The notes under the pieces are model-generated. The model ran no database searches and had not been told where the DNA came from. It saw only the letters and a program-made list of their open reading frames with translations. Position numbers and translations under genes: made by a program. A DNA stretch of 62,015 bases from Bacillota bacterium (GTDB lineage Bacteria > Bacillota > Sulfobacillia > DUSP01 > JBFMCS01): NCBI GenBank assembly GCA_040754315.1, contig JBFMCS010000044.1:1-62015 (forward strand), given 5' to 3'. Below, in pieces: positions 1,345-18,229 of this stretch; position 1 is the stretch's first letter, and the number at the start of each line of letters is the position of its first letter.

Positions 1345-2595
1345 GTGGCTGGTACATTGGCTGAAAGGATCATAGAACGAAAGGTTGGTCGCAAGGTTAC
1401 ACCCGGGGAAATAGTTGTAGTGGAAGTGGATCTCTGCTACCTACAAGACGGAACTGGGCCTCTCACGGTTAGGCAAATGGCCAAACTCGGGGAAGAGGCA
1501 ATTTGGGACTCATCCAAGGCAGCAGTGTTTATAGACCACGCGTCTCCTAGCTGTCACAAGGCCCTCTCCAACGACCACGCCCTCCTGAGAAAGTTCGCCA
1601 AGAGGACCGGAGTCCGGCTATATGACGTTGGCGATGGTATTTGCCACCAACTGGCATGCGAAGAACTGATCAAGCCAGCACAGATTGTGATAGGGGCAGA
1701 CTCGCACACCTGCATGGGTGGTGCGTTAGGTGCCCTTTCTACGGGCATGGGTTCCACGGATGTTGCCGTTATCCTGGCACATGGGAAGACTTGGCTCAGG
1801 GTGCCCGAGACCCTGCGGGTAAGAGTGACTGGTGCTTTTTCCGACGGAGTTTTTGCCAAGGACCTTATGCTTCATCTCATAGGTATGATCGGGGCAGACG
1901 GTGCCACGTACAAGTCTCTGGAATTCTGCGGGTCAGGGGTTAATCACCTGACCATGGAGGACCGGCTTACCATCGCTAACATGGCAGTGGAATGTGGAGC
2001 CAAGGCGGGTCTGTTTCCTTCAGACGAAATAACCGAGCGATACTTAGCGTCAATGGGGCGAAAAGAAGACTACGCTCCGCTCTCATCCGAAGAGTGTCCT
2101 GTCGATCAGGAGATAGAAGTCAACCTAGCTGAACTGGGGCCCACAATCGCGGTTCCTCATACCGTAGACAGTGCCAAACCCATAGATGAGGTTGCTGGAA
2201 TACCCATTGACCAAGTAGTGGTAGGTACCTGCACAAATGGAAGGGAAGGAGATCTTGCCACATTGGCTCGCTTTCTCAAGGGCAAGAGAGTCCATCCAAA
2301 CACAAGGTTGCTTGTCATCCCGGCCTCCAGACGCGTCTACCTCAATGCTGTAACCGATGGCATAGTTGAGGTCCTGCTACAGGCAGGTGCTGCAGTAATA
2401 TCTCCCACATGTGGACCCTGTCTAGGGCTTCACGCGGGCATTCTCGGAGATGGCGAAAAGTGCTTGAGTACCCAGAACAGAAACTTCAAGGGGCGAATGG
2501 GCAATCCAGAATCTGAGGTATACTTGGCGTCTCCAGCAGTGGCCGCGGTAACAGCCATTAATGGACGGATTTCAGACCCCAGGGAGGTGAAGTAG
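1345..2595 (+). CDS. Aconitase-superfamily hydro-lyase, large subunit (LeuC/HacA type)
   Basis: This is the large subunit of a two-subunit [4Fe-4S] dehydratase that moves a hydroxyl group between adjacent carbons of a di- or tricarboxylic acid. The three cluster cysteines are present: C296 in GTCTNGR, and C356 and C359 in PTCGPCLG. Conserved active-site stretches HASPSCHK-like (residues ~64-71) and IGADSHTCMGG (~116) are also seen. At 416 residues it has the normal length of the LeuC/homoaconitase-like branch. GTG 1345 is preceded by AGGAGGG. The small subunit gene follows with no gap. Neighbouring isocitrate dehydrogenase and PrpF genes point to aconitate/isocitrate chemistry rather than leucine synthesis; no leuA or leuB is present. 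Confidence 0.88.
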   Translation: MAGTLAERIIERKVGRKVTPGEIVVVEVDLCYLQDGTGPLTVRQMAKLGEEAIWDSSKAAVFIDHASPSCHKALSNDHALLRKFAKRTGVRLYDVGDGICHQLACEELIKPAQIVIGADSHTCMGGALGALSTGMGSTDVAVILAHGKTWLRVPETLRVRVTGAFSDGVFAKDLMLHLIGMIGADGATYKSLEFCGSGVNHLTMEDRLTIANMAVECGAKAGLFPSDEITERYLASMGRKEDYAPLSSEECPVDQEIEVNLAELGPTIAVPHTVDSAKPIDEVAGIPIDQVVVGTCTNGREGDLATLARFLKGKRVHPNTRLLVIPASRRVYLNAVTDGIVEVLLQAGAAVISPTCGPCLGLHAGILGDGEKCLSTQNRNFKGRMGNPESEVYLASPAVAAVTAINGRISDPREVK

Positions 2596-3099
2596 GTGAT
2601 TATCGCAGGAAGGGCCTGGAAGTTCGGCGACGACATCAGCACAGATCTTATTGCACCTGGTAGGTATTTCCACCTGAGATCCAATATGGAGGAGTTCGCC
2701 AAGCACGTTTTCGAGGACGCGAACCCCGATTTCGCCACGGAGGTGAAGGCGGGAGACTTCGTGGTAGCCGGCAAGAATTTTGGGCTTGGGTCAAGTCGAG
2801 AGCATGCACCGCTATTGATCAAAATGGCTGGAGTGAGTGCCATTATTGCCAAATCCGTGGCCAGGATATTCTTCAGAAACGCCATCAACCTCGGGCTTCC
2901 CGTGTTGATATGCGACACTGATTCCATAGAGGAAGGGGCTCAGTTAGAGGCGGACCTGGTAAAGGGGATCCTGAGAGTGATACCCGATGGGCAACCCATC
3001 ACTTTTACGGCTCTTCCAGACGTCATGCTAAAAATACTGAACGATGGCGGGCTCATTGATCACATGAAGAAACACAAGGGTTTCGCGCTGAGCGACTAA
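2596..3099 (+). CDS. Aconitase-superfamily hydro-lyase, small subunit (LeuD/HacB type)
   Basis: This swivel-domain partner of the preceding subunit has 167 residues. It begins with the typical [15 protein letters not shown] and carries [14 protein letters not shown], the active-site loop whose SSRE serine and arginine bind substrate. The specificity loop after IAPGRY reads YFHLRS. It keeps an arginine at about the place where homoaconitase-type enzymes have one for a gamma carboxylate, whereas isopropylmalate isomerases carry hydrophobic residues. This favours a tricarboxylate substrate (inference from family knowledge). The GTG start directly abuts the large-subunit stop, so the two are translationally coupled. 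Confidence 0.88.
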
Positions 3100-3121
3100 A
3101 CAATCTTGGGAGGGAGTTCCA

Positions 3122-4348
3122 GTGACTGCTTCTAATGGAGAGAAGATATCCGTAGAACAAGGGGCCCTTAAGGTGCCCGACAATGTCATCATCCCCTATA
3201 TAGAAGGTGATGGCGTAGGGCCCGGCATATGGGCTGCATCCAAGAAGGTTTTCGACGCTGCGGTTCTTAGGAGGTACGGGAACTCCCGAAGCGTGGTGTG
3301 GACGGAGGTGCTTGCGGGTGAGAAGGCCTACGAGGCCACCGGACAATGGCTCCCGCAGAGCACTCTAGATACCGTTGTGGAACACACGGTGACCATTAAG
3401 GGACCCCTTACTACCCCGGTTGGCGGTGGGTTTAGAAGCCTGAATGTGACTATTCGACAAGTGTTAGACCTTTATGCATGCATACGTCCGGTGCGGTGGA
3501 TTAAGGGCGTGCCAGCTCCAGTCAAGAATCCCGAGCACATGAATGTGGTCATCTTCAGAGAAAACACGGAGGATGTCTACGCAGGGTTGGAGTGGACCGC
3601 CGATAGCAAAGACGCCGCAGATATCCGGAAGTTCTTGAAGGAACGGTTCGGCGTGAAGCTTACCGATGACACGGCAATTGGCCTAAAGCCCATGAGCAAA
3701 TGGGCAAGTCAACGTCTGATTAGGAAAGCCGTGAACTACGCTATCAGCAACGATCGCCGTAGCGTCACACTGGTACACAAGGGTAACATTATGAAGTATA
3801 CCGAAGGTGCGTTTAGGGATTGGGGTTACCAGTTGGCCAAGCAAGAATTTGGTTTCCGAACCCTTACTGAGGAGGAACTCTTTGGCGAGTTTGAGGGAAA
3901 GGCTCCCGATGGAAAGGTAATCATCAAAGATAGGATTGCCGACAATATGCTGCAACAGCTCCTTACCCGAACGAGAGACTACGATATTCTGGCCATGCCC
4001 AACCTCAACGGGGACTACTTTTCCGACGCGGCCGCTGCTCAAGTAGGCGGGCTGGGCATGGCTCCTGGGGCCAACATTGGTGACAGGATCGCGGTCTTCG
4101 AAGCCACTCACGGGACGGCTCCCAAGTATGCGGGAATGGACATGGTCAACCCCTGTTCACTTATTCTTTCAGGGGTGATGATGTTTGAGTACTTGGGATG
4201 GGGGGAAGTTGGGGACACGATCACAGATGCGGTTGAGAAGACCATTTCCCAGGGTGTAGTCACGTACGACCTAGCCAGGATGCTAGAGGATGGCCATGAG
4301 GTCAGTACCTCAGCATTTGCCCAGGCCGTTGTGGACAACATGGACTAG
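3122..4348 (+). CDS. icd: Isocitrate dehydrogenase, NADP-type
   Basis: This enzyme oxidatively decarboxylates isocitrate to 2-oxoglutarate in the cytoplasm. The 408 residues match bacterial Icd throughout: [10 protein letters not shown] at the N terminus, the substrate/phosphorylation loop [11 protein letters not shown] (S106, N108), the following R-containing [11 protein letters not shown], metal-binding [11 protein letters not shown], and HGTAPKYAG. The Lys-Tyr pair in that last motif is the usual mark of NADP+ preference. GTG 3122 follows GGGAGGG. Its place directly after the two hydratase subunits suggests that they deliver isocitrate to it. A role as isopropylmalate dehydrogenase is unlikely given the S-x-N-x-x-x-R loop. 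Confidence 0.9.
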
Positions 4349-4366
4349 AACTGTGAGGTGAGACCC

Positions 4367-5515
4367 ATGTATCGGAAGGTGCCATGCTGCATCTACCGGG
4401 GGGGAACCAGCAAGGGCGTGTTGTTCCATGACAGGGACCTTCCTCAAGAAAGGGCCTTACGGGATCAGGTAATCCTGGCGGCCTTCGGAAGCCCAGATTC
4501 GAGGCAGATTGATGGGCTGGGAGGAGCCGATTCCCTTACAAGTAAGACGGCCATCGTTGGCCCCCCCACGACGAATGCCGATGTGGACTATACCTTTGGC
4601 CAAGTTAGCATAACGGCCCCGCTGGTCGACTATGGCAGCAACTGTGGAAATATCTCCTCCGCCGTGGGGCCGTTTGCCATAGATGAGGGGCTTGTCCCGG
4701 CCTCGGAGCCGGTCACGAAAGTGCGGATCCATAACACCAACAGCAGGAAGATCATTGTCGCGGAGGTTCCGACTCAGGACGGCATGCCAGTCTGTGTTGG
4801 AGACTACGCCATTTCCGGGGTTCCTGGCACTGGTGCCAAGATAACCCTGGACTTCTTGGATTCTGGTGGAGCCGTCACTGGAAGGTTGCTTCCTACCGGA
4901 CAACCCAGAGACGTGCTGGACCTGGGGCACCTGGGGAAGTTTGAGGTATCAGTGGTCGATGCGGCTACTGCAGTTGTGTTTGTCAAGGCGAAGGACCTTG
5001 GGCTGACTGGAACCGAAACCCCAAACAGGATAAACGCCGATCAGGCGCTCTTGGCTCTCCTTGAGGCCATAAGGGGTGCGGCAGCTGTATTGGTAGGCAA
5101 GGCCCGGGAACCGGAAGAGGCCGCCAAGAAGAGCCCCTCTGTGCCCAAGATAGCCTTTGTGGGACCGCCCGCCTCCTATGAGACAGCCTCAGGCGAAACG
5201 GTCCAAGAGAACAGCATTGACGTGGTAAGTAGGATCATGTCCATGCAGAAGGCCCACAAGGCCTATGCCGTCACAGGGGCAATATGCACTGCGGCCGCAG
5301 CCAGTCTTGAGGGAACAGTGGTGAGCGAGGTCCTGGAGTCCTTCAAGGGCGATGAGGTCAGGTTAGGACACGCTGGGGGAACCCTGTCAGTTGAGATTTC
5401 CATAGAGGACGTAAGCGGAGAAATGGTTCTAAGAAGAGCGGCCTTGGGCCGCACCGCCAGGAGAATAATGGAGGGGTACGTCTACGTGCCAAACAGACTC
5501 TTCTCTCAAGCGTAG
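4367..5515 (+). CDS. PrpF-family isomerase (aconitate / methylaconitate type)
   Basis: PrpF-family enzymes shift double bonds or interconvert cis/trans forms of aconitate-like acids by proton transfer, without cofactor. The family opening VPCCIYRGGTSKG is at residues ~5-17, K60 lies in DSLTSKTAIV, and C93 lies in SNCGNISSAVGPFA, the region holding the catalytic cysteine in PrpF. The 382-residue length is typical. I chose ATG 4367 because GAGGTGAG sits just upstream; an in-frame GTG at 4358 lies within that site. In this context trans- to cis-aconitate (or 2-methylaconitate) isomerisation feeding the hydratase is the natural guess. Members acting on 4-oxalomesaconate (GalD type) also exist. 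Confidence 0.85.
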   Translation: MYRKVPCCIYRGGTSKGVLFHDRDLPQERALRDQVILAAFGSPDSRQIDGLGGADSLTSKTAIVGPPTTNADVDYTFGQVSITAPLVDYGSNCGNISSAVGPFAIDEGLVPASEPVTKVRIHNTNSRKIIVAEVPTQDGMPVCVGDYAISGVPGTGAKITLDFLDSGGAVTGRLLPTGQPRDVLDLGHLGKFEVSVVDAATAVVFVKAKDLGLTGTETPNRINADQALLALLEAIRGAAAVLVGKAREPEEAAKKSPSVPKIAFVGPPASYETASGETVQENSIDVVSRIMSMQKAHKAYAVTGAICTAAAASLEGTVVSEVLESFKGDEVRLGHAGGTLSVEISIEDVSGEMVLRRAALGRTARRIMEGYVYVPNRLFSQA

Positions 5516-5542
5516 GCGTTAGACTCTGGAGGTGTACTCGCC

Positions 5543-7168
5543 TTGCCATATCCACCAATTCTACAGGAGACCATAGCCCGTCTTGAACAGACACGGCAGG
5601 CTCGGCTTGAACAGAAGATCCCCAGGCTCAGCGCTGAAGGAAAACAAGAGTTACTTAGTCATTTCCACCCAGATTTCGACCCAAGGGGCATGAGGACCCT
5701 CGCGGTGGGGAACAACGCTGGAAGCAAGGTACCGCTGGAGGTAGCTGACATACTCGAAGCCTACAGCTGGATTGATCCTCAAGGCTACGATGTAGATGCC
5801 TGCGACATTTCCACAGATATGCTGGTGATCGGGGGAGGAGGCGGAGGAGCGACCGCAGCCTTAGTAGCTCAGGCGAACGGAGCCAATGTGGTCTTGGCGA
5901 CCAAACTCAGGCTGGGAGACTCCAATACCGTGATGGCTGAGGGGGGAATAGCAGCAGCCACCAAGCCATCCGACACTCCGGTTATGCACTACGTGGACAC
6001 CATGGGGGGAGGCCGTTACGCCAACTCGCCAGAGCTCGTTAAGACTCTCGTTCATGATGCTCCCCTAATAGTGAAGTGGCTTAAGGGGCTCGGAGTCATG
6101 TTTGACCAGGAGAGTGACGGTACGATCGTGACCTCCTTCGCTGGAGGCCATTCCCGCCGGCGAGTTCATTCCTGCAAGGACTTCAGCGGTCTTGAGATGA
6201 TGAGGGTCCTTAGGGATGAGATCTGGAACAAGGGTATCACTGTGGTAGAGTTCTCCCCCGCAGTTGACCTGGTTCTGGACGAGAACGGACATTGCGCTGG
6301 CGCCATACTACAGAATCTAGAAACGGGCAACTTCATCACAGTGAGAGCAGGAGCCGTCATTCTGGCCACAGGCGGACTGGGTCGCCTCCACATCCGTTCC
6401 TTCCCTACAACGAACCACTACGGGGCGACCGCCGATGGACTTGCCATCGCGTACAGAGCTGGAGCTAGCGTGCTAGACATGGATTCTGTTCAATACCACC
6501 CCACGGGTGTTGCCTGGCCCGAACAGATGCTGGGCAATCTGGTCACCGAGGCTCTGAGGGGCAACGGCGCCCACCTGGTAAACGTGCAGGGAAATAGGTT
6601 CATCAATGAGCTGGAGACCCGTGACACAACCTCCTCTGCCATAATCAGGGAATGCGTCGATAGGAACCTTGGTGTTGTTGCTCCTAGTGGTCAGAAGGGA
6701 GTCTGGCTCGATGTTCCTGTAATAGACATGATTGGACCTGAAGGTACCATACAACGCCTGTTCGCCGGTATAGTCGGAAGGTTTCTCCGGTACGGAATAG
6801 ATGTGAAAAAGGAGCCCATTCTCGTATTTCCTACGCAGCATTACCAGAATGGCGGCCTGAAGATTAGCGGAGATGGCCTGACTGATGTTCCGGGTTTGTT
6901 TGCGGCGGGTGAGGTGTCTGGTGGCGTACACGGCAGGAATCGCTTGGGCGGGAACTCACTGGTTGACATCTTCGTGTTTGGAAGAAGGGCCGGGTTAAGC
7001 GCAGTTGACTGGACGGCGAAGAATGTCGTGGGCCTGCCTACCCTGGAGCACGTGAGGAGGCACCACAAGGAGCTCGAGACGCTTGGGGTGGGTCGGCAGA
7101 GGAGGTCCCCTAGGATTTTGCCGGACTACACTCGAGCTGGACTCAACAAGATAAATCAGGCAATTTGA
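5543..7168 (+). CDS. FAD-dependent fumarate reductase/succinate dehydrogenase-type flavoprotein
   Basis: This is a 541-residue flavoprotein of the FrdA/SdhA/NadB family. After a ~90-residue N-terminal extension of unknown role comes the dinucleotide-binding loop VIGGGGGGATAA, then SNTVMAEGGIAA, QYHPTG, R360 in the catalytic ETRDTTSSA stretch, and the C-terminal FAGEV-like AAGEVSGGVHGRNRLGG. It should oxidise or reduce a carbon-carbon bond next to carboxylates. No iron-sulfur or membrane-anchor subunit is encoded beside it, so a soluble enzyme is likely. In this operon, a tricarballylate dehydrogenase-like (TcuA-like) or aconitate reductase activity is an attractive inference. The start is TTG 5543 after GGAGGTG. 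Confidence 0.82.
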   Translation: MPYPPILQETIARLEQTRQARLEQKIPRLSAEGKQELLSHFHPDFDPRGMRTLAVGNNAGSKVPLEVADILEAYSWIDPQGYDVDACDISTDMLVIGGGGGGATAALVAQANGANVVLATKLRLGDSNTVMAEGGIAAATKPSDTPVMHYVDTMGGGRYANSPELVKTLVHDAPLIVKWLKGLGVMFDQESDGTIVTSFAGGHSRRRVHSCKDFSGLEMMRVLRDEIWNKGITVVEFSPAVDLVLDENGHCAGAILQNLETGNFITVRAGAVILATGGLGRLHIRSFPTTNHYGATADGLAIAYRAGASVLDMDSVQYHPTGVAWPEQMLGNLVTEALRGNGAHLVNVQGNRFINELETRDTTSSAIIRECVDRNLGVVAPSGQKGVWLDVPVIDMIGPEGTIQRLFAGIVGRFLRYGIDVKKEPILVFPTQHYQNGGLKISGDGLTDVPGLFAAGEVSGGVHGRNRLGGNSLVDIFVFGRRAGLSAVDWTAKNVVGLPTLEHVRRHHKELETLGVGRQRRSPRILPDYTRAGLNKINQAI

Positions 7169-7193
7169 ACCACATGTTTAGGGAGGGAAAGCC

Positions 7194-7547
7194 GTGAAGG
7201 CGAGAGTGTTTAAGATCGAGGAAGTCATGTGGGAAGAGCCACCCGAGCATTACAGTGCCTTCTCCAAATTGCTGGTCAACCCCAAGTCAGTCGGATCGAA
7301 GCACTTTGACTTCCGCATCTCCAGCTACCAACCCAAAGGCTATTGTTCTTGTCACGCCCACCAAGTGCAGGAACAAATCTATTACGTCCTACAAGGGAAA
7401 GGGATCATGGAGATGGACGACCTCAAAAAGGTTGTCGATCCTCACACGGTGATACACATACCCCCTGGGGTTAGACATGCTATCTATAACACCGGTCTGG
7501 AGGACCTAGTTTTTTTCGTCATAACTTCACCACCGGAAGATAAGTGA
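7194..7547 (+). CDS. Small single-domain cupin protein
   Basis: The 117 residues form one cupin barrel. Motif 1 reads CHAHQVQEQIYYVLQGKG, supplying two His and a Glu, and motif 2 is PPGVRHAIYN, with a fourth ligand His. It probably binds a divalent metal and may be an isomerase, decarboxylase or sensing domain; the sequence alone does not say which. GTG 7194 follows AGGGAGGG. It lies between the flavoprotein and an alcohol dehydrogenase. A similar but distinct cupin occurs at 19296 next to another zinc dehydrogenase, so the pairing recurs within this window. Confidence 0.75.
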   Translation: MKARVFKIEEVMWEEPPEHYSAFSKLLVNPKSVGSKHFDFRISSYQPKGYCSCHAHQVQEQIYYVLQGKGIMEMDDLKKVVDPHTVIHIPPGVRHAIYNTGLEDLVFFVITSPPEDK

Positions 7548-7560
7548 ACTGGAGGTCTTG

Positions 7561-8649
7561 ATGATGAAGGCACGGGCCGCGGTCTTGACTCAATTTGGTA
7601 AGCCCATGGAACACCGGGAATTCCAGTTGGTCGATCCGTGTCCCGGTGAGATAGTCGTGAAGATGGATATGGCGGGGGTGTGTGGCTCTGATCCCCATAT
7701 CTGGAGGGGACATCACCCCATGTCATGGGGCGCTCTCCCGTTGATCCTTGGCCACGAGAACGTCGGAAGGGTCTATGCCACAAGGCGGACTGGCAAAGGA
7801 GCACCCAAAGAAGGCGATAGGATAATGTGGCAAAGAAGCATCACCTGCGGTGGGTGCCACTACTGTCTTGTAGCCCGCAAGCCGTGGCTGTGCCAGGAGC
7901 GCACAGTATACGGGATCAACTACTCCAGTTCGGTTTCTCCGCATCTCAGAGGAGGCTATTCTGAGTTTGTCTACTTGAATCCCAAGACCCCTGTGATTGC
8001 ACTGCCAGACTCGGCAGATCCACAGCGGTTCGTGGCCGCAGGCTGTTCTGCTGATACAGCCCTTCATGCCGTTCAAGTGGCCGGACTGGGGCTTTCGGAG
8101 GACGTAGTAGTACTGGGCTGTGGCTCCGTTGGCTTGTGCACCATCGCCTACGTAAGCGCAACTGGTGCCAGATCCATAGTGGCCATTGACCTGAATGAGG
8201 GGAGACTGGACATGGCTCTAACCTTCGGAGCCACTGCCACCCTCAATGCCTCCCACACTACTCCAGAGGAACGCCAGGAGCACGTATACGCGAGGACGGA
8301 AGGGCTTGGTGCTTCAGTGGTGTTTGAGTGCAGCGGTTCCACCGGCGCCGCGGCCGAGGGGTTTAAGCTGGCCAGGAAGGGTGCCAGGTACGTTATGCCT
8401 GGTTTTGGGCATGACGGTGGAACGGACTTCACCGTGAGCGGCTGGTACGATATCACCTCCAAGGAGATTGAGCTTCGGGGTTGCTTCGCCGGGGACTTCA
8501 GGCATCTGGTGGAAGCCATCGATTTTATTGACCGATCTGACTGGCCATTCGAATGCCTGGTTACCCATCGATACACCCTGGACATGGCTAACGAGGCTCT
8601 TGCCTGCGTGGAACAGCGAAGGGCTATCAAGGCAGCCATTGTCTACTGA
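7561..8649 (+). CDS. Zinc-dependent medium-chain alcohol dehydrogenase
   Basis: This 362-residue NAD(P)-dependent dehydrogenase belongs to the MDR superfamily. Catalytic zinc ligands appear in GVCGSD and in GHENVGR. The structural-zinc loop is present (CGGCHYC followed by WLC). The nucleotide-binding glycine motif is VLGCGSVGLC (~residues 180-190) with an acidic residue after the second strand (AIDLNEG), which favours NAD+. It follows the cupin by 13 bases with GGAGG ahead of ATG 7561; ATG 7564 is equally possible. Likely job: interconvert an aldehyde or ketone with its alcohol in the pathway of this operon, perhaps on the product of the next gene's ThDP enzyme. Substrate unknown. Confidence 0.85.
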   Translation: MMKARAAVLTQFGKPMEHREFQLVDPCPGEIVVKMDMAGVCGSDPHIWRGHHPMSWGALPLILGHENVGRVYATRRTGKGAPKEGDRIMWQRSITCGGCHYCLVARKPWLCQERTVYGINYSSSVSPHLRGGYSEFVYLNPKTPVIALPDSADPQRFVAAGCSADTALHAVQVAGLGLSEDVVVLGCGSVGLCTIAYVSATGARSIVAIDLNEGRLDMALTFGATATLNASHTTPEERQEHVYARTEGLGASVVFECSGSTGAAAEGFKLARKGARYVMPGFGHDGGTDFTVSGWYDITSKEIELRGCFAGDFRHLVEAIDFIDRSDWPFECLVTHRYTLDMANEALACVEQRRAIKAAIVY

Positions 8650-8673
8650 AGGATTACTAAGGAGTGAGGACTT

Positions 8674-10449
8674 GTGACATCGAAGACTATGAAGGGTGCC
8701 GACATTATATCTGAATATCTCATAGCGGAGAGAGTGCCTTATGTACTTACCCTAAGCGGCCATGGAAACGTTGGGCTTCTGGACGCATTGGCGCAAAGGG
8801 CCGATAAGATAAGGGCTATCGGAGTTCATCACGAGCAGGCAGCTGGTCACATTGCGGATGCCTATTATCGCGTAGCCCACAAACCACTGGCTACGATCAC
8901 GTCCTGTGGCCCGGGATCCGCCAATCTGCCCATAGCCTTGGCCTGTGCTTTCTACGATTCCTCTGCCTTCCTTGCCATTACTGGCAATGTGCCCACCTGC
9001 CAGTTTAACCGGGGGCCTTTCCAGGAGACCGGCCGGCACCACCAGGGGGATTTTCCATCTGTGATCAAGCCTTACGTCAAGAAGGCTTTCCAGCCCACGC
9101 GTGTGGACATGGTACCCACCGCCATAAGACAAGCCTTCAAGACTATGCTTTCCGGCCGGCCGGGTCCCGTCAATCTTGATGTACCCTTCAATGTGTTCCA
9201 GGAGGAGGGGGAGGTGGAGTTCCCGGAGCCATCCCAATGGAGGTGGGGCATCAGCAGTAGGGCGGGAGGCGACGTTGACAGCCTGCAGGATGTCTTGAAC
9301 CTCCTCCTGAAGGCGGAGAAGCCTCTCATTCTAGCAGGGCACGGTGTCATATTGTCCGAAGCCTCCGACGAACTCAGGCAGCTGGCAGAGTACTTGGAGG
9401 TACCAGTAGTAACAACTCCAAACGGGTCTGGGTCTCTGGACAGCAGAGACGCTCTGTGCCTAGGCCCGACCGGCCGTAACGGGACGTACCAAGCTAACCA
9501 AGCCTGCAGAAACGCAGACGTGCTGCTGGCACTTGGGACCAGGTTCTGTGACAGAGTGTCCAGTGCCTGGATCCCAGGCTTCACATTCAATATTCCTCCC
9601 ACCAAACTCATTCAGGTAGACATAGACCCCGACGAAATCGGCAGGAACTTCGCCCCGGCTATCGGGATACTTGGTGATATCAGAAGTGTGTTGCGCCAGC
9701 TGCTTTCAATGATCAAGGAAGAAGGCATCTCACGGCAGAGCCGGCCCGGCTGGCAGAAGGAGATCAATGGATGGAGACAGGTTTGGGAGGATGCATGCTC
9801 GCCAAATAGGTCCTCCGACACCGTGCCGATACATCCTGAACGCCTGCTCGCGGATCTGAGGGATGTCTTCCCTGAAGACGGGATAATCCTGGCAGACGCA
9901 GGTGTTCATCATAACTGGATTGTCCAGCACTGGCCTGCCTACCGGCCGCAGACTGTCATCCAGTCCTGGGGTTTCTCTGCCATGGGCTTCGGTGTATGTG
10001 GTGTTATTGGAGCGAAGCTAGCCCGGCCCGAAAAGAAGTGCCTGTCGGTTGTTGGGGACTACGGATTCATGATGGCACCTCACATCGTGTGCACGGCTGT
10101 GGAGCTTAACCTACCTGTGATTTGGGTGGTATGGAACAACCTGGCCCAGGCTGCAATTAAGGACATCCAGACCTTCCAGTTCGAAGGCCGTGAAATTGTG
10201 ACAGAGTACTGTAACGCTGCTACTGGGGAGATCTGTAGTCCAGACTTTGTGGCTTTGGCAAGGGCTCTTGGGGCAGAAGGCTCCAGGGTTGAGCATCCTG
10301 GTGACTTGAAGGCTGCATTCGACACGGCTCTCAAGTCTGACAAACCGTACGTCTTGGAAGTCATGGTTGACAAGGGCGTACGCCCGGTTGCCACCGGCGG
10401 GTGGCAGTTGCCCCCGTTGCCTCCTATGCGCCCGGCGTTTGGGAGTTAA
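8674..10449 (+). CDS. Thiamine diphosphate-dependent enzyme (acetolactate synthase-like superfamily)
   Basis: The 591 residues show the three-domain layout of pyruvate-decarboxylase/acetolactate-synthase enzymes. The PYR domain has the activating glutamate E54 in HHEQAAGHIADAYY. A central domain with LGTRFCDR follows. The PP domain has the ThDP-Mg motif GDYGF (D462) closing with Asn-Asn at 488-489. It probably decarboxylates a 2-oxoacid or carries out carboligation. No regulatory small subunit (IlvN) and no other branched-chain genes are nearby, so acetolactate synthesis is not favoured. A 2-oxoacid from the upstream genes, such as 2-oxoglutarate, is a plausible substrate, with the adjacent alcohol dehydrogenase reducing the aldehyde. 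GTG 8674 follows AAGGAGTGAGG. Confidence 0.82.
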   Translation: MTSKTMKGADIISEYLIAERVPYVLTLSGHGNVGLLDALAQRADKIRAIGVHHEQAAGHIADAYYRVAHKPLATITSCGPGSANLPIALACAFYDSSAFLAITGNVPTCQFNRGPFQETGRHHQGDFPSVIKPYVKKAFQPTRVDMVPTAIRQAFKTMLSGRPGPVNLDVPFNVFQEEGEVEFPEPSQWRWGISSRAGGDVDSLQDVLNLLLKAEKPLILAGHGVILSEASDELRQLAEYLEVPVVTTPNGSGSLDSRDALCLGPTGRNGTYQANQACRNADVLLALGTRFCDRVSSAWIPGFTFNIPPTKLIQVDIDPDEIGRNFAPAIGILGDIRSVLRQLLSMIKEEGISRQSRPGWQKEINGWRQVWEDACSPNRSSDTVPIHPERLLADLRDVFPEDGIILADAGVHHNWIVQHWPAYRPQTVIQSWGFSAMGFGVCGVIGAKLARPEKKCLSVVGDYGFMMAPHIVCTAVELNLPVIWVVWNNLAQAAIKDIQTFQFEGREIVTEYCNAATGEICSPDFVALARALGAEGSRVEHPGDLKAAFDTALKSDKPYVLEVMVDKGVRPVATGGWQLPPLPPMRPAFGS

Positions 10450-10570
10450 ATCCTGAATGTTCTGGCACAGCGACCACCTAACATCGGAGGCAACGTGTAC
10501 GCGTGACTAGAGCATGGTGGTGTATTGTGCCCAGCGTCACGTTTTGGACCACGCATAGGGGGGAGAATAG

Positions 10571-12511
10571 ATGGCTTTTGACAAGCTCTTCGAGCCAGCC
10601 CACATCGGCAAAGTAGCGGTGAAAAATCGTCTCATTATGGCACCGTGTGAACGCAACTACGCGAACTTGGATGGTACCACCAACCAGCGCTATAACGATT
10701 ACCTTGTGGAGAGAGCCAAGGGCGGAGTGGGGCTCATCCTTGTGGAGTCCATGTACATCGATCCAGTTGGAAGAAACCACTTCCGCCAACTGGGCATCCA
10801 TGATGATGCAGTAATCCCTGGCCTCAAGAGGATGGCTGATGGTGTTCATGCCTACGGCTGCCGTTTGGGCGCTGAGCTGCAGCACGGCGGTAGGCAGAGC
10901 TCCAGTTTTGTAACTGGATGCCAACCGGTAGGGCCTTCTCCGGTTCCCTGCAAAGTGCTGGCTGCGGGAGACCTGCCCCGTGAGCTAACGGTGGATGAGA
11001 TAAGGGGCCTTGTGGAATCCTTCGGTCGCGCTGCCAGAAGAACTGTGGAGGCTGGTTTCGACCTGGTCGAAGTCCACGGGGCCCACGGGTACTTGGTGGG
11101 ACAGTTTCTTTCCCCTTTCAGCAACAAGAGACAGGATGAGTACGGAGGGACGGCGGAAAAACGGATGAGATTCCCGTTGGAAGTGGTAAGGAGGGTGCGC
11201 CAAGAGGTGGGGAGCCAAGTGGCCTTGGCGTACAGGATAAGTGCCAATGAGTACATTGAGGGAGGACTTACCCTGGAGGATACTATCCCCTTCATGGAGC
11301 GCCTTGAAGCGGAGGGGATCGATCTAATTGATGTATCTGCGGGGATATATGAGTCCATCATATGGCTGGCCCAGCCCGCAGGTTTTCCCAGGGGCTGCAT
11401 GGTGGACATGGTGGAGGAAATCCGTAAGCACGTAACAGTACCTGTCACCGTTGTGGGTCGCATTAATAACCCTGAGCTTGCCAACTCGATTTTGGAGGAA
11501 GGCAAGGCCGACTTCATCGCAATGGGGCGCGCGCTTCACGCTGATCCCGAGCTCCCCAACAAGGCCAAGGCTGGCAGACTCAAGGGCATCAGGACTTGTC
11601 CAGCGTGCATGAGGTGTAGCGACGAATTGGGAACGAACCTTCCAATCAGCTGTACGATCAACCCCTCGGCTGGAAAGGAAAGGGAATTTGCCTCGGTTAA
11701 GCGAGGGGTTTCCCGCCGGGTCGCGGTAGTGGGTGGAGGGCCTGCCGGGCTTGCCTGTGCCGCTACCGCTGCCGCCCAGGGGCACAGCGTCGTCTTGTAC
11801 GAGAAGGGAACGAACCTCGGAGGCCAACTGCGCCTCGCGTGTAAGCCATCCCACAAGCGAGAGCTGCGGGAGGTGATTGACCACCTGATATGGCAGGTGG
11901 AGCAATCCGACGTTGAGGTGATTCTGGGCAGTGAGGTAACCTACGATACCTTGAAGCAGGTTGGGCCCGATGTTGCTGTCATAGCTACGGGTGCTAGGCC
12001 CGTCAAGCCCTTCACGCCCGGTATTGATAATCCCTGGTGTCACGTGGCAATGGACGTTTTGGATGAGAAGGTTAGAATGGATGGGTCCATCCTCATACTC
12101 GGGGGTGGGCTGATAGGGGCTGAGACAGCTGTCTTCCTCAGGGAGAAAGGCACCGAGCAGATTACCATCATCGAGCCGACTGACAAGGTCGTCGGCGGTC
12201 TAGGGCTGCGAGAAGGTTGGCACCTCAGGCATCTGCTCGAGGAGGACGACAAGATAGTAATCAAGTGTAATACCACTGTCGAACGAGTGGATGAATCAGG
12301 GATTCTCCTGCAAAACCGGGGTTCCTACGAGAGAGTCAAGGCCGATTACCTGGTGATAGCCGTAGGGATGGCACCGGAAAACGGAATCTGGGAAGAAGTC
12401 TGGTGTCAAGGACAACCACCCTTTGAGGTACATGCGGTTGGCGATTGTGTGCTGCCGCGTCGGATGAAGGAAGCGATCCACGAAGGGGCCGCCGTAGCCT
12501 TAAGTCTGTGA
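10571..12511 (+). CDS. NADH:flavin oxidoreductase, old yellow enzyme fused to FAD/NAD domain
   Basis: This 646-residue iron-sulfur flavoenzyme resembles 2,4-dienoyl-CoA reductase, BaiCD and trimethylamine dehydrogenase. The N-terminal TIM barrel binds FMN (KNRLIMAP; EVHGAHGYL, ~residue 173; FIAMGRALHADPE). It is followed by a cysteine cluster CPACMRC plus a further Cys (SCTINP) for [4Fe-4S], then a Rossmann FAD domain (VAVVGGGPAGLACA) with an NAD-binding insertion (ILGGGLIGAE). Such enzymes reduce conjugated C=C bonds or demethylate amines. About 120 bases without a gene precede it, so it may have its own promoter or be the last gene of the upstream run. Confidence 0.88.
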   Translation: MAFDKLFEPAHIGKVAVKNRLIMAPCERNYANLDGTTNQRYNDYLVERAKGGVGLILVESMYIDPVGRNHFRQLGIHDDAVIPGLKRMADGVHAYGCRLGAELQHGGRQSSSFVTGCQPVGPSPVPCKVLAAGDLPRELTVDEIRGLVESFGRAARRTVEAGFDLVEVHGAHGYLVGQFLSPFSNKRQDEYGGTAEKRMRFPLEVVRRVRQEVGSQVALAYRISANEYIEGGLTLEDTIPFMERLEAEGIDLIDVSAGIYESIIWLAQPAGFPRGCMVDMVEEIRKHVTVPVTVVGRINNPELANSILEEGKADFIAMGRALHADPELPNKAKAGRLKGIRTCPACMRCSDELGTNLPISCTINPSAGKEREFASVKRGVSRRVAVVGGGPAGLACAATAAAQGHSVVLYEKGTNLGGQLRLACKPSHKRELREVIDHLIWQVEQSDVEVILGSEVTYDTLKQVGPDVAVIATGARPVKPFTPGIDNPWCHVAMDVLDEKVRMDGSILILGGGLIGAETAVFLREKGTEQITIIEPTDKVVGGLGLREGWHLRHLLEEDDKIVIKCNTTVERVDESGILLQNRGSYERVKADYLVIAVGMAPENGIWEEVWCQGQPPFEVHAVGDCVLPRRMKEAIHEGAAVALSL

Positions 12512-12558
12512 CCCCTTTCTTCGACGAGAAGCGGACTAGGTGTCAAGGAGGGGTGAAG

Positions 12559-14082
12559 GTGCCCGAGCGAAACAGTGAGGTCATCCTGGAGCTCAGGAAC
12601 ATCACGAAGGTGTTTCCGGGAGTCAAAGCCCTTGACAACGTGGATTTCGACTTGAGGAAGGGAGAGGTTCACGTACTTGTGGGTGAAAACGGGGCTGGCA
12701 AGTCTACCTTAATGAAGGTGTTGTCAGGCGTGCACCAACCGGACGGCGGTGAAATCCGACTTAGGGGCAAACAGGTAGAGATCTCCAGCCCCAGGGGCGC
12801 CCAAGACCTTGGGATATCCATGATATACCAGGAGTTCAATCTAGTGCCCTTCCTTTCTGTAGCCAGCAACATATACCTTGGGAGGGAACCCACTCGCCTC
12901 GGCCTTATCGACCACCGGACGATGCACAAGCGAACCACTGAGCTGCTGGAATCGGTGGGTATGGACATCAAAAGTCAAACGCTCATAAAGGACCTAGGGA
13001 TTGCAAAACAGCAGTTGGTGGAGGTAGCAAAGGCCCTCTCCTTGGACTGCGACATCCTCATAATGGATGAGCCCACCGCAGCCCTTGGGGCAAAAGCCAT
13101 TGAACAGCTCTTTGAGATAATTCGTCGCCTGAAGGATAAGGGAATAAGTGTCATCTACATATCCCACAGACTCGAGGAACTCGCGCAAATCGGTGACCGG
13201 GTCACGGTGATCAGGGATGGCAAACGTGTTGGTTGCTCACCTATGTCAGACGTTAAGACGGAAGACATCATCTGCATGATGGTCGGGGACAAGATATGCC
13301 AGATGTTCCCCAGGGACATAGTTCCTAAGGGAGAGCAAGCTCTCAATCTTGTCAACATCTCTCGCAAGGATGTTCTTCACGACGTCAGTCTTGAGATTCA
13401 CTGCGGCGAAATCGTAGGCCTCGGGGGCGTTATGGGGTCGGGCAGGACTGAACTGGCAGAAGTCGTTTTTGGTGAGGCGCCCTTTGACGGCGGAGAGATG
13501 TACCTTTTCGGGCAACGAGTGAGGCGCATGTCCCCGGTGCTGGCTGTAAGCAGGGGTCTAGGTTTCCTCCCAGAGGACAGAAAGCAGAAGGGGTTGGCAC
13601 TAGACCTCAGAGTCAGGGAGAACGTACTCATGTCCAGCCTGAATAAGGTATTCCCCAATAGGATCATCAATTCGAAGATTGAGAAAGATCTAGTTAAGCG
13701 ATTTGTAGACGACCTCAACATCGCCACACCATCCATAAACCGATTTGTGAAGTACCTTAGCGGCGGGAATCAGCAGAAAGTTGTTATAGCCAAGTGGCTC
13801 TGCACCAGGTCGAGGTTTTTTATCTTTGATGAACCTACCCGAGGCATAGATGTTGGAGCCAAGGTCGAGGTACACAAGCTTATGAACGAGTTGGTCAAGA
13901 ATGGCGCGGCGGTACTCATGATCTCCTCCGAGTTGCCGGAACTCGTCAACATGAGCGATCGTATTTACATCATGTACAGGGGGACTATCGTGAAGGAACT
14001 TGGGCGGGATGAGACCACCAAGGAGGAGGTACTTCGCTATGAGACTACCGGCGGCAAAGACCGGGCCATCGCCCAAGGGTGA
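12559..14082 (+). CDS. Ribose/monosaccharide-type ABC transporter ATPase (two nucleotide-binding domains)
   Basis: The 507 residues match RbsA/MglA-type proteins in length and order. NBD1 has Walker A GENGAGKST, the signature-position segment LGIAKQQLVEVAKAL (a departure from the common LSVGQQQ) and Walker B ILIMDEPTAAL. NBD2 has the usual degenerate Walker A GGVMGSGRTE, a good LSGGNQQK signature and FIFDEPTRGIDVG. It energises the two following permeases at the inner face of the membrane. I place the start at GTG 12559, seven bases after AAGGAGG; GTG 12553 is possible. It begins about 50 bases after the flavoenzyme and overlaps the first permease by 44 bases. Confidence 0.92.
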   Translation: MPERNSEVILELRNITKVFPGVKALDNVDFDLRKGEVHVLVGENGAGKSTLMKVLSGVHQPDGGEIRLRGKQVEISSPRGAQDLGISMIYQEFNLVPFLSVASNIYLGREPTRLGLIDHRTMHKRTTELLESVGMDIKSQTLIKDLGIAKQQLVEVAKALSLDCDILIMDEPTAALGAKAIEQLFEIIRRLKDKGISVIYISHRLEELAQIGDRVTVIRDGKRVGCSPMSDVKTEDIICMMVGDKICQMFPRDIVPKGEQALNLVNISRKDVLHDVSLEIHCGEIVGLGGVMGSGRTELAEVVFGEAPFDGGEMYLFGQRVRRMSPVLAVSRGLGFLPEDRKQKGLALDLRVRENVLMSSLNKVFPNRIINSKIEKDLVKRFVDDLNIATPSINRFVKYLSGGNQQKVVIAKWLCTRSRFFIFDEPTRGIDVGAKVEVHKLMNELVKNGAAVLMISSELPELVNMSDRIYIMYRGTIVKELGRDETTKEEVLRYETTGGKDRAIAQG

Positions 14083-15010
14083 GCGACTACAGCACTACCT
14101 CCGGGGCATTCCGCCAGCCTTCTATGGGCTGATATTCATCATCATTCTCTACTCCCTGGTCAGCCCCGGCTTTCTGACAACGAGAAACATCTTGACCCTT
14201 CTAATCCAAGGCTCCATGTTACTCGTCATCTCACTGGGTATGACCCTTGTAGTACTCAGCGGTGGAGTTGATCTCTCCTTGGGTGCCTTGCTGAGTCTCT
14301 GTGGTGTCGTCATGGCAATGATGCTTGTAAGCGGCCAGAGCCTGTTTATGGCCATAATAGTCACATTACTGGTGGGGGTCCTATGCGGCTTGACCACGGG
14401 TACTTTGGTTGCCCGTTTTGGGCTGCAACCCTTTGTGGCCAGTTTCGGTATGCTTGGCGTATGTGAGGGAATTGCCCTAGTCTTCACGGACGGTTCTTCC
14501 ATTATCGTACGAAACCCTTATCTCCGAAGCTTGGCTGCCAGTTATCTCATGGGCATTCCCATGGCTGGATGGTTCGCAGGTTTGTGCTTTGTTGCCTTCT
14601 ACGTAATCCTGTATAAGACGAGATTCGGTGCGTACGTCTACGGCATAGGAGGAAATGAGGAGGCTACAATTCTTTCAGGGATTCGGGTAATACGCTACAA
14701 GACAGGTATCTATGTGCTTGCGGGCCTATCTGCTGCAATGGCTTCCCTTATTATGACCGGCCGCCTAAATGCAGCTCATCCCTTCGTTGCCATCGGCTAT
14801 GAATTCGATGCGGTGGCTTCTGTAATTGTTGGAGGGACTGCCTTCGAAAGAGGCAGGGGAGGCATTTGGGGGACACTAGTAGGCGTTGCCTTTATCAGTG
14901 TATTGAGGAACGGCCTTAACATAATTGGGGTAAACCCCTTCGCACAGGTCCCTGTGATCGGAGCCGTTATTATACTGGCGATAATCCTGGGCAAGGCACA
15001 GAAGCGGTGA
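14039..15010 (+). CDS. Ribose-type ABC transporter permease 1
   Basis: This is a 323-residue integral membrane protein of the RbsC/BPD_transp_2 family, with about 8-10 hydrophobic segments. The family signature LVVLSGGVDLSLGALLSL lies at ~residues 63-80 and the C-terminal loop VASVIVGGTAFERGRGG near residue 265. ATG 14039 is chosen because AAGGAGGAGG lies nine bases upstream, inside the end of the ATPase gene; this gives a normal-length N terminus. Its stop overlaps the start region of the second permease. Together they should form a heterodimeric channel. Confidence 0.9.
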   Translation: MRLPAAKTGPSPKGERLQHYLRGIPPAFYGLIFIIILYSLVSPGFLTTRNILTLLIQGSMLLVISLGMTLVVLSGGVDLSLGALLSLCGVVMAMMLVSGQSLFMAIIVTLLVGVLCGLTTGTLVARFGLQPFVASFGMLGVCEGIALVFTDGSSIIVRNPYLRSLAASYLMGIPMAGWFAGLCFVAFYVILYKTRFGAYVYGIGGNEEATILSGIRVIRYKTGIYVLAGLSAAMASLIMTGRLNAAHPFVAIGYEFDAVASVIVGGTAFERGRGGIWGTLVGVAFISVLRNGLNIIGVNPFAQVPVIGAVIILAIILGKAQKR

Positions 15011-15021
15011 GGAGGGGGAGC

Positions 15022-16047
15022 ATGTCATCACGCAGGTCCAATGTCAAAGGTATTTTGCTGAGGTCTGCCAGGATACTTGTCCTCGTTCTCCTGGCACTGG
15101 TAATAACAACCCTGAACCGCGATTTCGCCACCATGTCCAACCTTCTCAACATCCTAAGGTGGGGCTCTGCCGCAACGATTCTGGCCGCTGGTCTAACGCT
15201 CGTGGCGATTACTGGTGGCATAGACCTCTCCGTAGGTTCAGTATTGTCTTTGTCTGCATGTGTAGCGGCGTACCTGATGACTCAGACGGCGATAGGATGG
15301 CCGCTTGCCGTGGCAGGTGCGCTTGCAGCCTCGGCTTGTGTAGGCGTGGTCAACGGGATACTCGTCACTTTCGCGGGGCTACCCCCCTTTGTAGCCACCT
15401 ACGGAATGCTATGGGTCGCGGCGGGGCTGGCTGGTCTCTTGATGCGGGGCTCGGTGTACTACGGGTTCCCCAAGGGTTTCCTTTTCCTCGGCGCCGGGCA
15501 TCTCTTGGGTGTTCCGTTACCCGTATTCCTTATGGGAATACTGGTCGTTGTTCTGACCTTCCTTCTTCAGAAGACCACCTACGGGAGAGAACTCTACGTA
15601 ATCGGCTCCAACATACGTGCTGCCCGTCTGGCGGGCATCAAGATAGACAAGGCGAGGATTATTGCCTACTGCATTAGCTCTATCTGTGCTGGAATGGCTG
15701 GTTTACTCTACATCGCCCGGCTCAACGCCGCAGACTCAGCCACTGGGGAACTCATGTTGCGGCCAGCCATCGCTGCTGTGACCGTAGGGGGCACCTCGCT
15801 TCTGGGTGGCTTGGGTTCGGTCACAGGTACAGTAACCGGAAGCTTCATAATGACCGTGGTATTGGCAGGCATGAACATACTCAACATATCCTCGTTCTTG
15901 CAGCCCACTGTTACCGGTGGCATTCTCATTGGCACAGTCATAGCGGATGTAGCCATGAGGCGCCGGGAGACCATGGAGGAAGACGTGTTCAGTCTGTTCC
16001 AGAACCTGGCTGGCAAGGGGTCTGTGGAGTCAAAGAAGGGGGGGTGA
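15022..16047 (+). CDS. Ribose-type ABC transporter permease 2
   Basis: This is a 341-residue RbsC-family permease, homologous to the preceding one. It has the conserved LVAITGGIDLSVGSVLSLSA stretch and IAAVTVGGTSLLGGLGSVTG toward the C terminus, which contacts the ATPase. ATG 15022 follows GAGGAGGGGG; an in-frame GTG at 15007 overlaps the preceding stop. Two different permeases in one ribose-type importer are a known variant. The substrate is not evident from sequence. Flanking sugar-type SDR, dehydrogenase and TIM-barrel genes suggest a sugar, polyol or sugar-acid. Confidence 0.9.
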   Translation: MSSRRSNVKGILLRSARILVLVLLALVITTLNRDFATMSNLLNILRWGSAATILAAGLTLVAITGGIDLSVGSVLSLSACVAAYLMTQTAIGWPLAVAGALAASACVGVVNGILVTFAGLPPFVATYGMLWVAAGLAGLLMRGSVYYGFPKGFLFLGAGHLLGVPLPVFLMGILVVVLTFLLQKTTYGRELYVIGSNIRAARLAGIKIDKARIIAYCISSICAGMAGLLYIARLNAADSATGELMLRPAIAAVTVGGTSLLGGLGSVTGTVTGSFIMTVVLAGMNILNISSFLQPTVTGGILIGTVIADVAMRRRETMEEDVFSLFQNLAGKGSVESKKGG

Positions 16048-16114
16048 CACATGAGACGGTGATTATTCGGTGGTTCTGCGGCCAAACAACACAGAATTCA
16101 AGGGGGGTTCAGTT

Positions 16115-17164
16115 GTGCAAAAGCAGCGCGCAAGCATTGTATTCAGGCTGACCATGCTGATTCTGGTTGTTGCACTGGTGGTCGCAGTGTCTGGCTGCGG
16201 AGGTGATTCGGCTCCGGAACCGGCACAAGAAGAAGAGCCAGCCGGTCCTACGCCCAAAGACAGCTACACCATAGCGTTCATGGTTAAGAACATGTTTAAC
16301 CCGTTCTGGAAGCTGTGTAAGATCGGCGCGGAGAAGGCCGCTGCAGAAACCGGCAAGGTTCGGATTGTCCACTACTCTCCGACAAAGCCTGACAACATCG
16401 AGGAACAAACCCGCATGGTTGAGGACATAACCCAGAAGTTCCTTGCTGGCGAAATCGACGGTATGGTTTTCGTTCCAGTGGACTACAAGGCTTTGGTTCC
16501 CGCCCTCAACGAAGCGCTCGATGCCGGGATGCCCATAGTAATCTACTGCAACAACATGGATGATTTCGCACAGAACGACAGGTACATAGCCTATGTGGGG
16601 CAGAACGACTACGAGTTGGGTAAAGCCATTGCCGAATATGCTTTTTCCAAGGTTGATTATAGTGGCAAGGTAGTGATAATCGAGGGAGTGCCAGCGGCGA
16701 TCACTAATATCGATCGAATGCGTGGTTTTCACGAAACCCTTCAGAAGTACCCAGACATGGAACTCATCGCATCACAGACAGGGCAGTACCGCAGAGTTCC
16801 GGGGATGCAGGTCATGGAGAATCTCTTGCAGACTCATCCCCAAATTGACGTGGTGCTGTCTGCCAACGATGACATGGCTCTTGGCTGTATTGAGGCCATT
16901 GAGGCCGCCGGAAGGCTGGGAGAGATGGTTGTGACCGGTATTGACGGCATACCTGATTCCCTAGCCTCCATTAGGGCTGGCCGACTTACGGCCACCATTG
17001 ATTATTCTGGGTTCAGGCAGGGATATAACAGCGTTCACATGATTGTGAAGGCCCTTGACGGAGAGCCAGTTGACCGATTGATCATGCTCGACTTCACCGT
17101 AATCACCCAGGACAACATCGAGGATTTTCTAAGGCAACTCGACGAGATTGGGCAGCCCTATTAG
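16115..17164 (+). CDS. Ribose-type ABC transporter substrate-binding lipoprotein
   Basis: This 349-residue extracytoplasmic binding protein (Peripla_BP_4 type) is anchored by a lipid. The N terminus has a basic start, a hydrophobic stretch (LTMLILVVALVVAV) and the lipobox VSGC, followed by a Pro/Glu-rich linker. The mature part starts with YTIAFMVKNMFNPFW and contains VDYKALVPALNEALDAGMP and SANDDMALGCIEAIEA, regions that line the sugar pocket in this family. GTG 16115 is seven bases after AGGGGGG. Placing the binding protein last, after both permeases, differs from many rbs operons. A hairpin follows the stop. Confidence 0.9.
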   Translation: MQKQRASIVFRLTMLILVVALVVAVSGCGGDSAPEPAQEEEPAGPTPKDSYTIAFMVKNMFNPFWKLCKIGAEKAAAETGKVRIVHYSPTKPDNIEEQTRMVEDITQKFLAGEIDGMVFVPVDYKALVPALNEALDAGMPIVIYCNNMDDFAQNDRYIAYVGQNDYELGKAIAEYAFSKVDYSGKVVIIEGVPAAITNIDRMRGFHETLQKYPDMELIASQTGQYRRVPGMQVMENLLQTHPQIDVVLSANDDMALGCIEAIEAAGRLGEMVVTGIDGIPDSLASIRAGRLTATIDYSGFRQGYNSVHMIVKALDGEPVDRLIMLDFTVITQDNIEDFLRQLDEIGQPY

Positions 17165-17171
17165 GAAAGAA

Positions 17172-18225: not shown

Positions 18226-18229
18226 ACCG

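Follow-up and report, generated by a model that had tools for sequence, protein, structure and literature searches.

The window analysed here is a complete contig (JBFMCS010000044.1, C44; 62,015 nucleotides) of a Bacillota bacterium with a genome of 2.92 Mb in 65 contigs (GCA_040754315.1), and it raises the question of which pathway is served by an orphan thiamine diphosphate (ThDP)-dependent enzyme encoded just downstream of tricarboxylate genes. Together with a small cupin, a zinc alcohol dehydrogenase (ADH) and an old yellow enzyme (OYE)-type reductase, this enzyme is encoded at positions 7194–12511. An initial annotation had appended these four genes to the tricarboxylate genes as a fermentative route, possibly through 2-oxoglutarate. 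Domain searches place the four genes where that annotation had put them and agree with the enzyme classes that it named, and each gene is preceded by a Shine-Dalgarno-like sequence. We group them differently. With moderate confidence, we read 7194–12511 as the first part of a catabolic module extending to about position 20524 and acting on a polyol, a sugar acid or a related (possibly carbocyclic) compound, the ThDP enzyme releasing an aldehyde. The tricarboxylate genes at 1345–5515 would form a separate module, which may share a transcript with it. The neighbours of related ThDP genes in other genomes weigh most in this choice, and the block is therefore grouped with the genes downstream of it and not with the tricarboxylate genes.

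The ThDP enzyme belongs to a separate clade

The ThDP enzyme scored below the cut-offs of the NCBIfam models for acetolactate synthase (AHAS; TIGR00118, 387.2 bits, cut-off 538.35), sulfoacetaldehyde acetyltransferase (Xsc; TIGR03457, 258 bits, cut-off 676.4) and glyoxylate carboligase (Gcl; NF008431, 266.5 bits, cut-off 791). None of its 25 best-scoring models was over its cut-off, and the IolD model (TIGR04377) was not among these best 25 of 52 families. There is no ACT/IlvN gene next to the ThDP gene, which is followed after 121 bp by the OYE gene. The true AHAS gene of this genome has leuC, leuD and an ilvD-like gene as neighbours on contig C29, and scores 780 bits against TIGR00118 (cut-off 538).

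In a phylogenetic tree of 64 rows, including references that all score over their NCBIfam cut-offs (five AHAS, two Xsc, one Gcl and three IolD), the window enzyme falls in a clade of 20 rows, itself included, with a support of 100/99. All reference rows branch outside this clade, the three IolD rows forming a clade of their own; the deep order of the tree is unsure owing to long branches, and the window clade itself is well supported. Two further sequences added later, from genomes G238 and G492, also fall inside the clade in a FastTree analysis (22 rows, support 1.0). Identification of the enzyme as AHAS, Xsc or Gcl is thus rejected by both cut-offs and tree position, and as IolD by tree position. 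The initial annotation had named AHAS and sulfoacetaldehyde acetyltransferase as the identities that would speak against its route, and the enzyme is neither.

Eleven positions are invariant in the 20 rows of the clade: H30, E54, F116, K136, R268, R294, H412, H413, W415, D497 and W577. The G238 and G492 proteins keep this signature, except for a T at position 413 in G492. The window enzyme resembles AHAS in being a three-domain ThDP enzyme with E54, F116, Q117, K136, R294 and H412 as in all five AHAS rows; E54 also separates it from the Gcl row, which carries V there. It differs from AHAS in its score and separate clade, in the lack of a small subunit, in its neighbours and at several residues: AHAS carries M, Q and Q at the positions of the clade-specific R268, H413 and D497, and W (in four of five rows) at that of I498, which is I or L in 18 of the 20 clade rows. 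The two arginines R268 and R294 suggest, from the alignment, a charged or heavily hydroxylated substrate. The structure model (mean pLDDT 77, pTM 0.84) has BbmA and AHAS as its nearest folds; because several of the segments with a pLDDT under 50 (108–122, 293–304, 433–436, 464–466 and 572–591) are located at the active site, we drew on this model for the overall fold alone.

These likenesses raise the alternative of a carboligase, in which the ThDP enzyme would couple an acyl unit with either a 2-oxo acid or an aldehyde in the manner of AHAS or BbmA. F116, K136 and R294, shared with all five AHAS rows, are at positions that we take to be functional in AHAS, and the best solved relatives, by sequence as by fold, are BbmA and AHAS. 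BbmA (8x3x, 8xod), labelled in the PDB as a ThDP-dependent HKA synthase, is the nearest solved structure (265 bits; TM 0.78 on the query, 30% identity). However, R294 is not kept in BbmA, which has a tryptophan at the aligned position, the AHAS tryptophan is replaced at 498, R268 and D497 are new, and the partners of the clade are transporters, dehydrogenases and regulators. We therefore regard the carboligase as rather improbable.

As far as searched, the clade and its gene combination appear undescribed, the enzyme families themselves being known; no publication on this gene set or on this idea was found in a literature search that fell short of most subscription journals.

The genome encodes a ThDP paralogue (45% identity) on contig C5 (L021:4434–6212), beside a sigma-54 activator, which belongs to a sister clade. 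Close relatives of this paralogue in genomes G016 and G058 sit near CoA-transferase-type genes. The sister clade perhaps has a different role.

Neighbours of the ThDP clade in other genomes

The neighbourhoods of 20 clade loci besides that of the window (the locus of genome G095, 13 named contigs and six plasmid loci) were compared with 67 loci of other ThDP groups, using one panel at an E-value of 1e-8. Many of these loci are cut by contig ends, and all counts refer to the stretches examined. Homologues of the window's first cupin (cupA; 44–58% identity) were found near nine of the 20 clade loci and none of the 67 controls, and the same holds for sugar-epimerase-type TIM barrels (9/20 vs 0/67). 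Other partners of the clade were extended short-chain dehydrogenases/reductases (SDR; 7/20 vs 2/67), SDR proteins (9/20 vs 4/67), FAD oxidoreductases (6/20 vs 1/67), aldehyde dehydrogenases (ALDH; 8/20 vs 7/67), Liv-type ABC transporters (8/20 vs 6/67) and Gfo/Idh proteins (4/20 vs 3/67).

Members of the clade occur in Pseudomonadota, in a single actinomycete and, here and there, in genomes of the window's phylum, and this scattered occurrence, together with the plasmid copies, suggests horizontal spread. In a sample of 398 genomes of the phylum, 12 had a ThDP match at 1e-100. Besides the window, only those of G238 (56% identity) and G492 (57%) belong to the clade, the best matches of the other nine genomes being at 35–47%. 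A search at 1e-150 found no further member beyond G492 (one of 22 genomes of its order) and G238 (one of four of its class).

These two genomes extend the pattern. The G492 locus (L211) encodes, on one strand, a TIM barrel (44% identity to that of the window), an extended SDR (40%), a homologue of the second zinc dehydrogenase (ADH2, 41%), an amidohydrolase, another TIM barrel (47%), the OYE (48–49%), the clade ThDP enzyme (57%), TRAP transporter genes and a second ThDP enzyme (42%). In G238 (L210), the gene next to that of the ThDP enzyme encodes an iron-type alcohol dehydrogenase (Fe-ADH), and the cluster includes a succinyl-CoA-ligase-like pair, an HpcH/HpaI lyase, two TIM barrels, an SDR, TRAP genes and an ADH2 homologue (41%). 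In G095 (L022), the ThDP gene is near genes for a TIM barrel, cupA, two ALDH matches and a homologous set of sugar ABC transporter genes. Across the window and these three loci, a TIM barrel is present in four of four, ADH2 in three, and cupA, the extended SDR and the OYE in two each. The TIM barrel of the window is encoded 9.3 kb downstream of the ThDP gene, past the sugar-type ABC transporter.

At two other loci (L116:14803–15270 and L118:3195–3662), the ThDP cluster includes a type II dehydroquinase-like gene that is encoded on the opposite strand. The L116 protein is below family cut-offs, and a 28% match follows a ThDP gene in L055.

The tricarboxylate genes, by contrast, do not recur: homologues of LeuC, LeuD, isocitrate dehydrogenase (IDH) and PrpF were each found at none of the 20 clade loci (controls: 7, 6, 6 and 0 of 67, respectively), and are absent from the examined stretches of all 22 other clade loci, L210 and L211 included, so that the window alone carries them among the four loci compared above. 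This bears directly on the route of the initial annotation, in which aconitase and IDH would yield 2-oxoglutarate, the ThDP enzyme succinate semialdehyde and a zinc dehydrogenase 4-hydroxybutyrate, the OYE acting as an electron sink. That the tricarboxylate and ThDP genes are adjacent and co-directional speaks for this route, as do the clade-conserved R268 and R294, which could bind a second carboxylate, and the Fe-ADH and succinyl-CoA-ligase-like genes of L210. AHAS-like ThDP enzymes with 2-oxoglutarate decarboxylase (KGD) activity also exist in cyanobacteria (PMC10418658).

Like the window enzyme, the cyanobacterial MaKGD is an AHAS-like orphan ThDP enzyme, whose Glu50, His385, Met410 and Asp435 match E54, H412, M437 and D462, the residue offset being anchored on the last three pairs (PMC10418658). 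However, the lysines K386 and K471, to which 2-oxoglutarate was docked in that report, would by this offset correspond to H413 and I498 and so would not be kept, a weak comparison that depends on the residue offset and on docked contacts (PMC10418658); nor are other clade members found beside tricarboxylate genes.

As to the last step of the route, the families listed for the two zinc ADHs (20 and 23, respectively) include no 4-hydroxybutyrate dehydrogenase model; both match zinc-ADH-type NCBIfam models, and ADH1 has zinc-ADH Pfam domains. 4-Hydroxybutyrate dehydrogenases are known from the Fe-ADH and beta-hydroxyacid dehydrogenase families, to which the two zinc ADHs do not belong. The 2-oxoglutarate to 4-hydroxybutyrate branch is unlikely, and the complete route from aconitase to the OYE quite unlikely. 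What persists of it is the aldehyde-forming ThDP step followed by dehydrogenases, which stays likely in view of the ALDH genes at eight of 20 loci and the Fe-ADH of L210; its link to 2-oxoglutarate found no support.

The OYE-type reductase and the dehydrogenases

The OYE combines an Oxidored_FMN domain with a pyridine-nucleotide domain and, starting at residue 343, carries the motif CxxCxxC(x12)C; it displays all features of the 4Fe-4S enoate/dienoyl-CoA reductase type. It is below the cut-offs of the named NCBIfam members mycofactocin OYE_2 and BaiCD. Its best solved matches are NCR (6qkg, 332 bits), which we take to be 2-naphthoyl-CoA reductase, and 2,4-dienoyl-CoA reductase (1ps9, 307 bits); the window OYE resembles both in sequence and differs from them by its adjoining ThDP gene. 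At 1e-150, OYE matches were detected in 31 of the 398 phylum genomes, the closest after that of the window being the G492 protein, whose gene is directly beside a ThDP gene. Of the 20 OYE loci listed, only two are flanked by a ThDP gene (within 1.5 kb), namely those of the window and of G492.

The best solved match of ADH1 is 1vj0 (238 bits). ADH2 scored 237 bits against Tdh (cut-off 458) and 216 against IolM (cut-off 450). The ATPase of the ABC transporter matches xylose/arabinose/ribose-type models below cut-off, and the solved matches of the TIM barrel are weak, MJ1311 coming first and ketose 3-epimerases next. The protein of the aldehyde:ferredoxin oxidoreductase (AOR) family, encoded at the end of the run, matches NF007354 over residues 2–219 (230 bits, cut-off 868); it is possible that it acts as an aldehyde oxidase.

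A proposed catabolic module

The epimerase-like TIM barrel, the polyol-type zinc dehydrogenase, the extended SDR and the sugar, TRAP, Liv and TTT transporters of the clade loci suggest that the substrate is a polyol, a sugar acid or a cyclitol-like compound. The ALDH genes, the Fe-ADH of L210 and the AOR-family protein of the window fit a ThDP step that forms an aldehyde, and for this reason we propose cleavage to an aldehyde. From the gene content, we infer the following direction, order of steps, kind of substrate and product. The substrate would be taken up by the sugar-type ABC transporter and turned into a 2-oxo acid or a vicinal diketone by the extended SDR, the zinc ADHs and the TIM-barrel epimerase, and the OYE would reduce an enone or enoate intermediate. 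Cleavage of the carbon–carbon bond beside a carbonyl by the ThDP enzyme would then free an aldehyde. A zinc ADH would reduce this aldehyde, or it would be oxidised, in the window perhaps by the AOR-family enzyme and elsewhere in the clade by an ALDH.

A known parallel in gene combination is IolD with the Thermotoga-type inositol enzymes IolM and IolO: the window likewise has a sugar-epimerase TIM barrel, a zinc dehydrogenase and a ThDP enzyme in one run, with matches to the IolM and IolO models. The window proteins differ from these inositol enzymes in scoring far below cut-off for IolM (see above) and for IolO (66 bits, cut-off 300), and the ThDP enzyme in falling outside the IolD clade.

Several observations weigh against a catabolic module of this kind. 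The clade loci cannot be counted as independent, most of one cluster being common to L116 and L118; cupA and the TIM barrel were each unseen in the examined stretches of 11 of the 20 loci; a zinc ADH of either kind is near just two of 20 (controls 4/67) and the sugar ABC set near just two of 20 (1/67); and OYE, the second cupin (cupB), AOR and LarA are at none of the 20 (nor of the 67 controls), the OYE being linked to the clade in one other genome only, G492. Since the OYE, zinc ADH and sugar ABC genes are rare at clade loci, the association of the OYE, ADH1 and the transporter with the ThDP gene is seen in few instances. Other points favour a link with tricarboxylates: the two halves are 25 bp apart in the window, a homologue of the OYE (35%) directly adjoins a PrpF relative (53–54%) in genomes G105 and G079, and a distant ThDP gene (23%) is located 1.8 kb ahead of a PrpF relative in G036. 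The arginines that could hold a second carboxylate count here as well, as do the L210 neighbours: its Fe-ADH matches the 4-hydroxybutyrate dehydrogenase model with 201 bits (cut-off 500), one of 14 models matched, all below cut-off, with ErcA as the best (289 of 550), and its CoA ligase is succinyl-CoA-ligase-like (248 bits, cut-off 370).

Organization of the run

The initial annotation ended the run at 12511. Co-directional genes continue to 23711, so that this endpoint is arbitrary: 19 genes, from LeuC to the AOR-family gene, follow each other on one strand (Table 1). It is uncertain where the ABC genes start; if the likelier positions (12559, 14039, 15022 and 16115) are taken, the gaps range from -44 to 121 bp, the largest being those between the ThDP and OYE genes (121 bp) and between the binding protein and SDR genes (113 bp). 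A scan of positions 1–19900 detected no promoter- or terminator-like match between genes of the run, and one terminator-like match (7494–7506) within the 3′ end of the cupin gene; its totals were similar to those of shuffled sequences (10 vs 11.2 and 16 vs 15.7).

Table 1. Genes of the co-directional run and the basis of their assignment.
Feature	Position	Strand	Basis or remark
cupA, small cupin, ThDP module	7194..7547	+	Cupin_2 domain
Zinc alcohol dehydrogenase 1 (ADH1)	7558..8649	+	ADH_N, ADH_zinc_N
AHAS-like ThDP enzyme, uncharacterised clade	8674..10449	+	Three ThDP-enzyme domains, clade tree
OYE-type enoate/enone reductase	10571..12511	+	Oxidored_FMN, 4Fe-4S motif, pyridine-nucleotide domain
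Sugar-type ABC transporter: ATPase, two permeases, binding protein	12559..17164	+	Model matches below cut-off
Extended SDR, NAD-epimerase type	17278..18225	+	40% homologue in L211
Zinc dehydrogenase 2 (ADH2), Tdh/IolM-like	18230..19270	+	Tdh and IolM model matches, below cut-off
Cupin B (cupB)	19296..19706	+	Cupin_2
TIM barrel, sugar epimerase/isomerase-like	19709..20524	+	IolO, fructoselysine-epimerase, UlaE-type matches below cut-off
LarA-type racemase			Between TIM barrel and AOR-family gene in run
AOR family, last gene of run	21858..23711	+	NF007354 partial match
Tricarboxylate module: LeuC, LeuD, NADP-IDH, PrpF-type isomerase	1345..5515	+	Outside ThDP module
FrdA/TfrA-like flavoprotein between both modules	5543..7168	+	TfrA model match, motifs

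This compact arrangement would suit a single pathway over the whole run (1345–23711), with the ThDP module serving the same substrate as the tricarboxylate genes. The uninterrupted run of co-directional genes is consistent with it, and the OYE–PrpF pairs of G105 and G079, together with a possible C4 theme in L210, make it somewhat more probable. However, the two modules were not found together at other loci examined, and PrpF with LeuCD (L155, L158) and IDH with LeuCD (L150) occur in stretches where no ThDP match was found. A single pathway thus seems to us a minor possibility.

One specific form of it, which reverses the initial annotation by placing the ThDP step upstream of the tricarboxylate genes, is the anaerobic breakdown of a polyol acid, either carbocyclic or branched, that resembles quinate or a cyclitol. 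A diketone would arise through dehydrogenation, epimerisation and enone reduction by the OYE; ring opening by the ThDP enzyme would yield an aldehyde acid, and AOR-type oxidation a tricarboxylic acid, which PrpF, LeuCD and IDH would convert into 2-oxoglutarate. We found no backing for quinate fermentation in the literature searched, and consider this form highly improbable.

The tricarboxylate genes

The label of tricarboxylate genes for 1345–5515 is a fair one, given the evidence for IDH, LeuCD, the PrpF-type protein and the flavoprotein that follows. IDH passes the NADP-IDH model TIGR00183 (613.7 bits, cut-off 567.3) and has at residue 106 an SLNVTIR loop, presumably the substrate loop of NADP isocitrate dehydrogenase. 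LeuC and LeuD fall in the aconitase/isopropylmalate isomerase subfamily; the LRSN loop of LeuD is shared with the IDH-adjacent LeuD of G028 (L150), unlike that of the genome's biosynthetic LeuD. The PrpF-type protein is below the cut-offs for OMA tautomerase (345.5 of 440) and PrpF (327.4 of 440.55), and its best solved match is 3-methylitaconate isomerase (3g7k, 390 bits), followed by PrpF (281) and oxalomesaconate isomerase (207). The flavoprotein scores 360 bits against TfrA (cut-off 718) and contains the motifs HPTG, ETRD, HYQNGG and NRLGGNSL; we take HPTG, TRD, HY and NRLGGNSL to be fumarate reductase motifs.

The genome contains two aconitase-family genes, the second in two pieces, and two Iso_dh-family genes. 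The region 1345–7168 combines LeuCD, an NADP-IDH and a PrpF-type isomerase with an FrdA-like flavoprotein; the genome has no other IDH, and the other aconitase-family gene sits in a leu/ilv run. Citrate synthase (PF00285) has no match in the genome, the same search being positive in 13 of 14 control genomes. An HMGL-like gene on contig C51 is below the LEU1_arch cut-off (321 bits, cut-off 485), which makes a Re-citrate synthase possible. The region could be an aconitate dismutation, with oxidation to 2-oxoglutarate and reduction by the flavoprotein, or a housekeeping route with a Re-citrate synthase. FrdA-like flavoprotein matches are also found near the OYE–PrpF pairs of G105 and G079 (L157:5330–8483 and L160:5873–9005).

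Other genes of the window

Downstream of the run, a dihydroxy-acid dehydratase-like gene (29310–30505) is split into overlapping frames (29310–30023 and 29945–30505), by a frameshift or a sequencing error. The region 30847–34257 encodes a glycyl radical enzyme, with 777 bits to the CutC model (cut-off 1050) and a PFL2-3 match over cut-off, followed by an apparent activating enzyme named from reading the sequence. Judged from translations only, 41740–61677 holds three gene pairs resembling hydantoinase/oxoprolinase A and B, along with two XRE-cupin-like regulators and another sugar-type ABC transporter.

Significance

The case cautions against inferring a pathway from adjacency alone. The ThDP clade, with its distinctive active site and its frequent association with a cupin, an epimerase and dehydrogenases, offers a concrete target in the search for a new carbon–carbon cleaving step.

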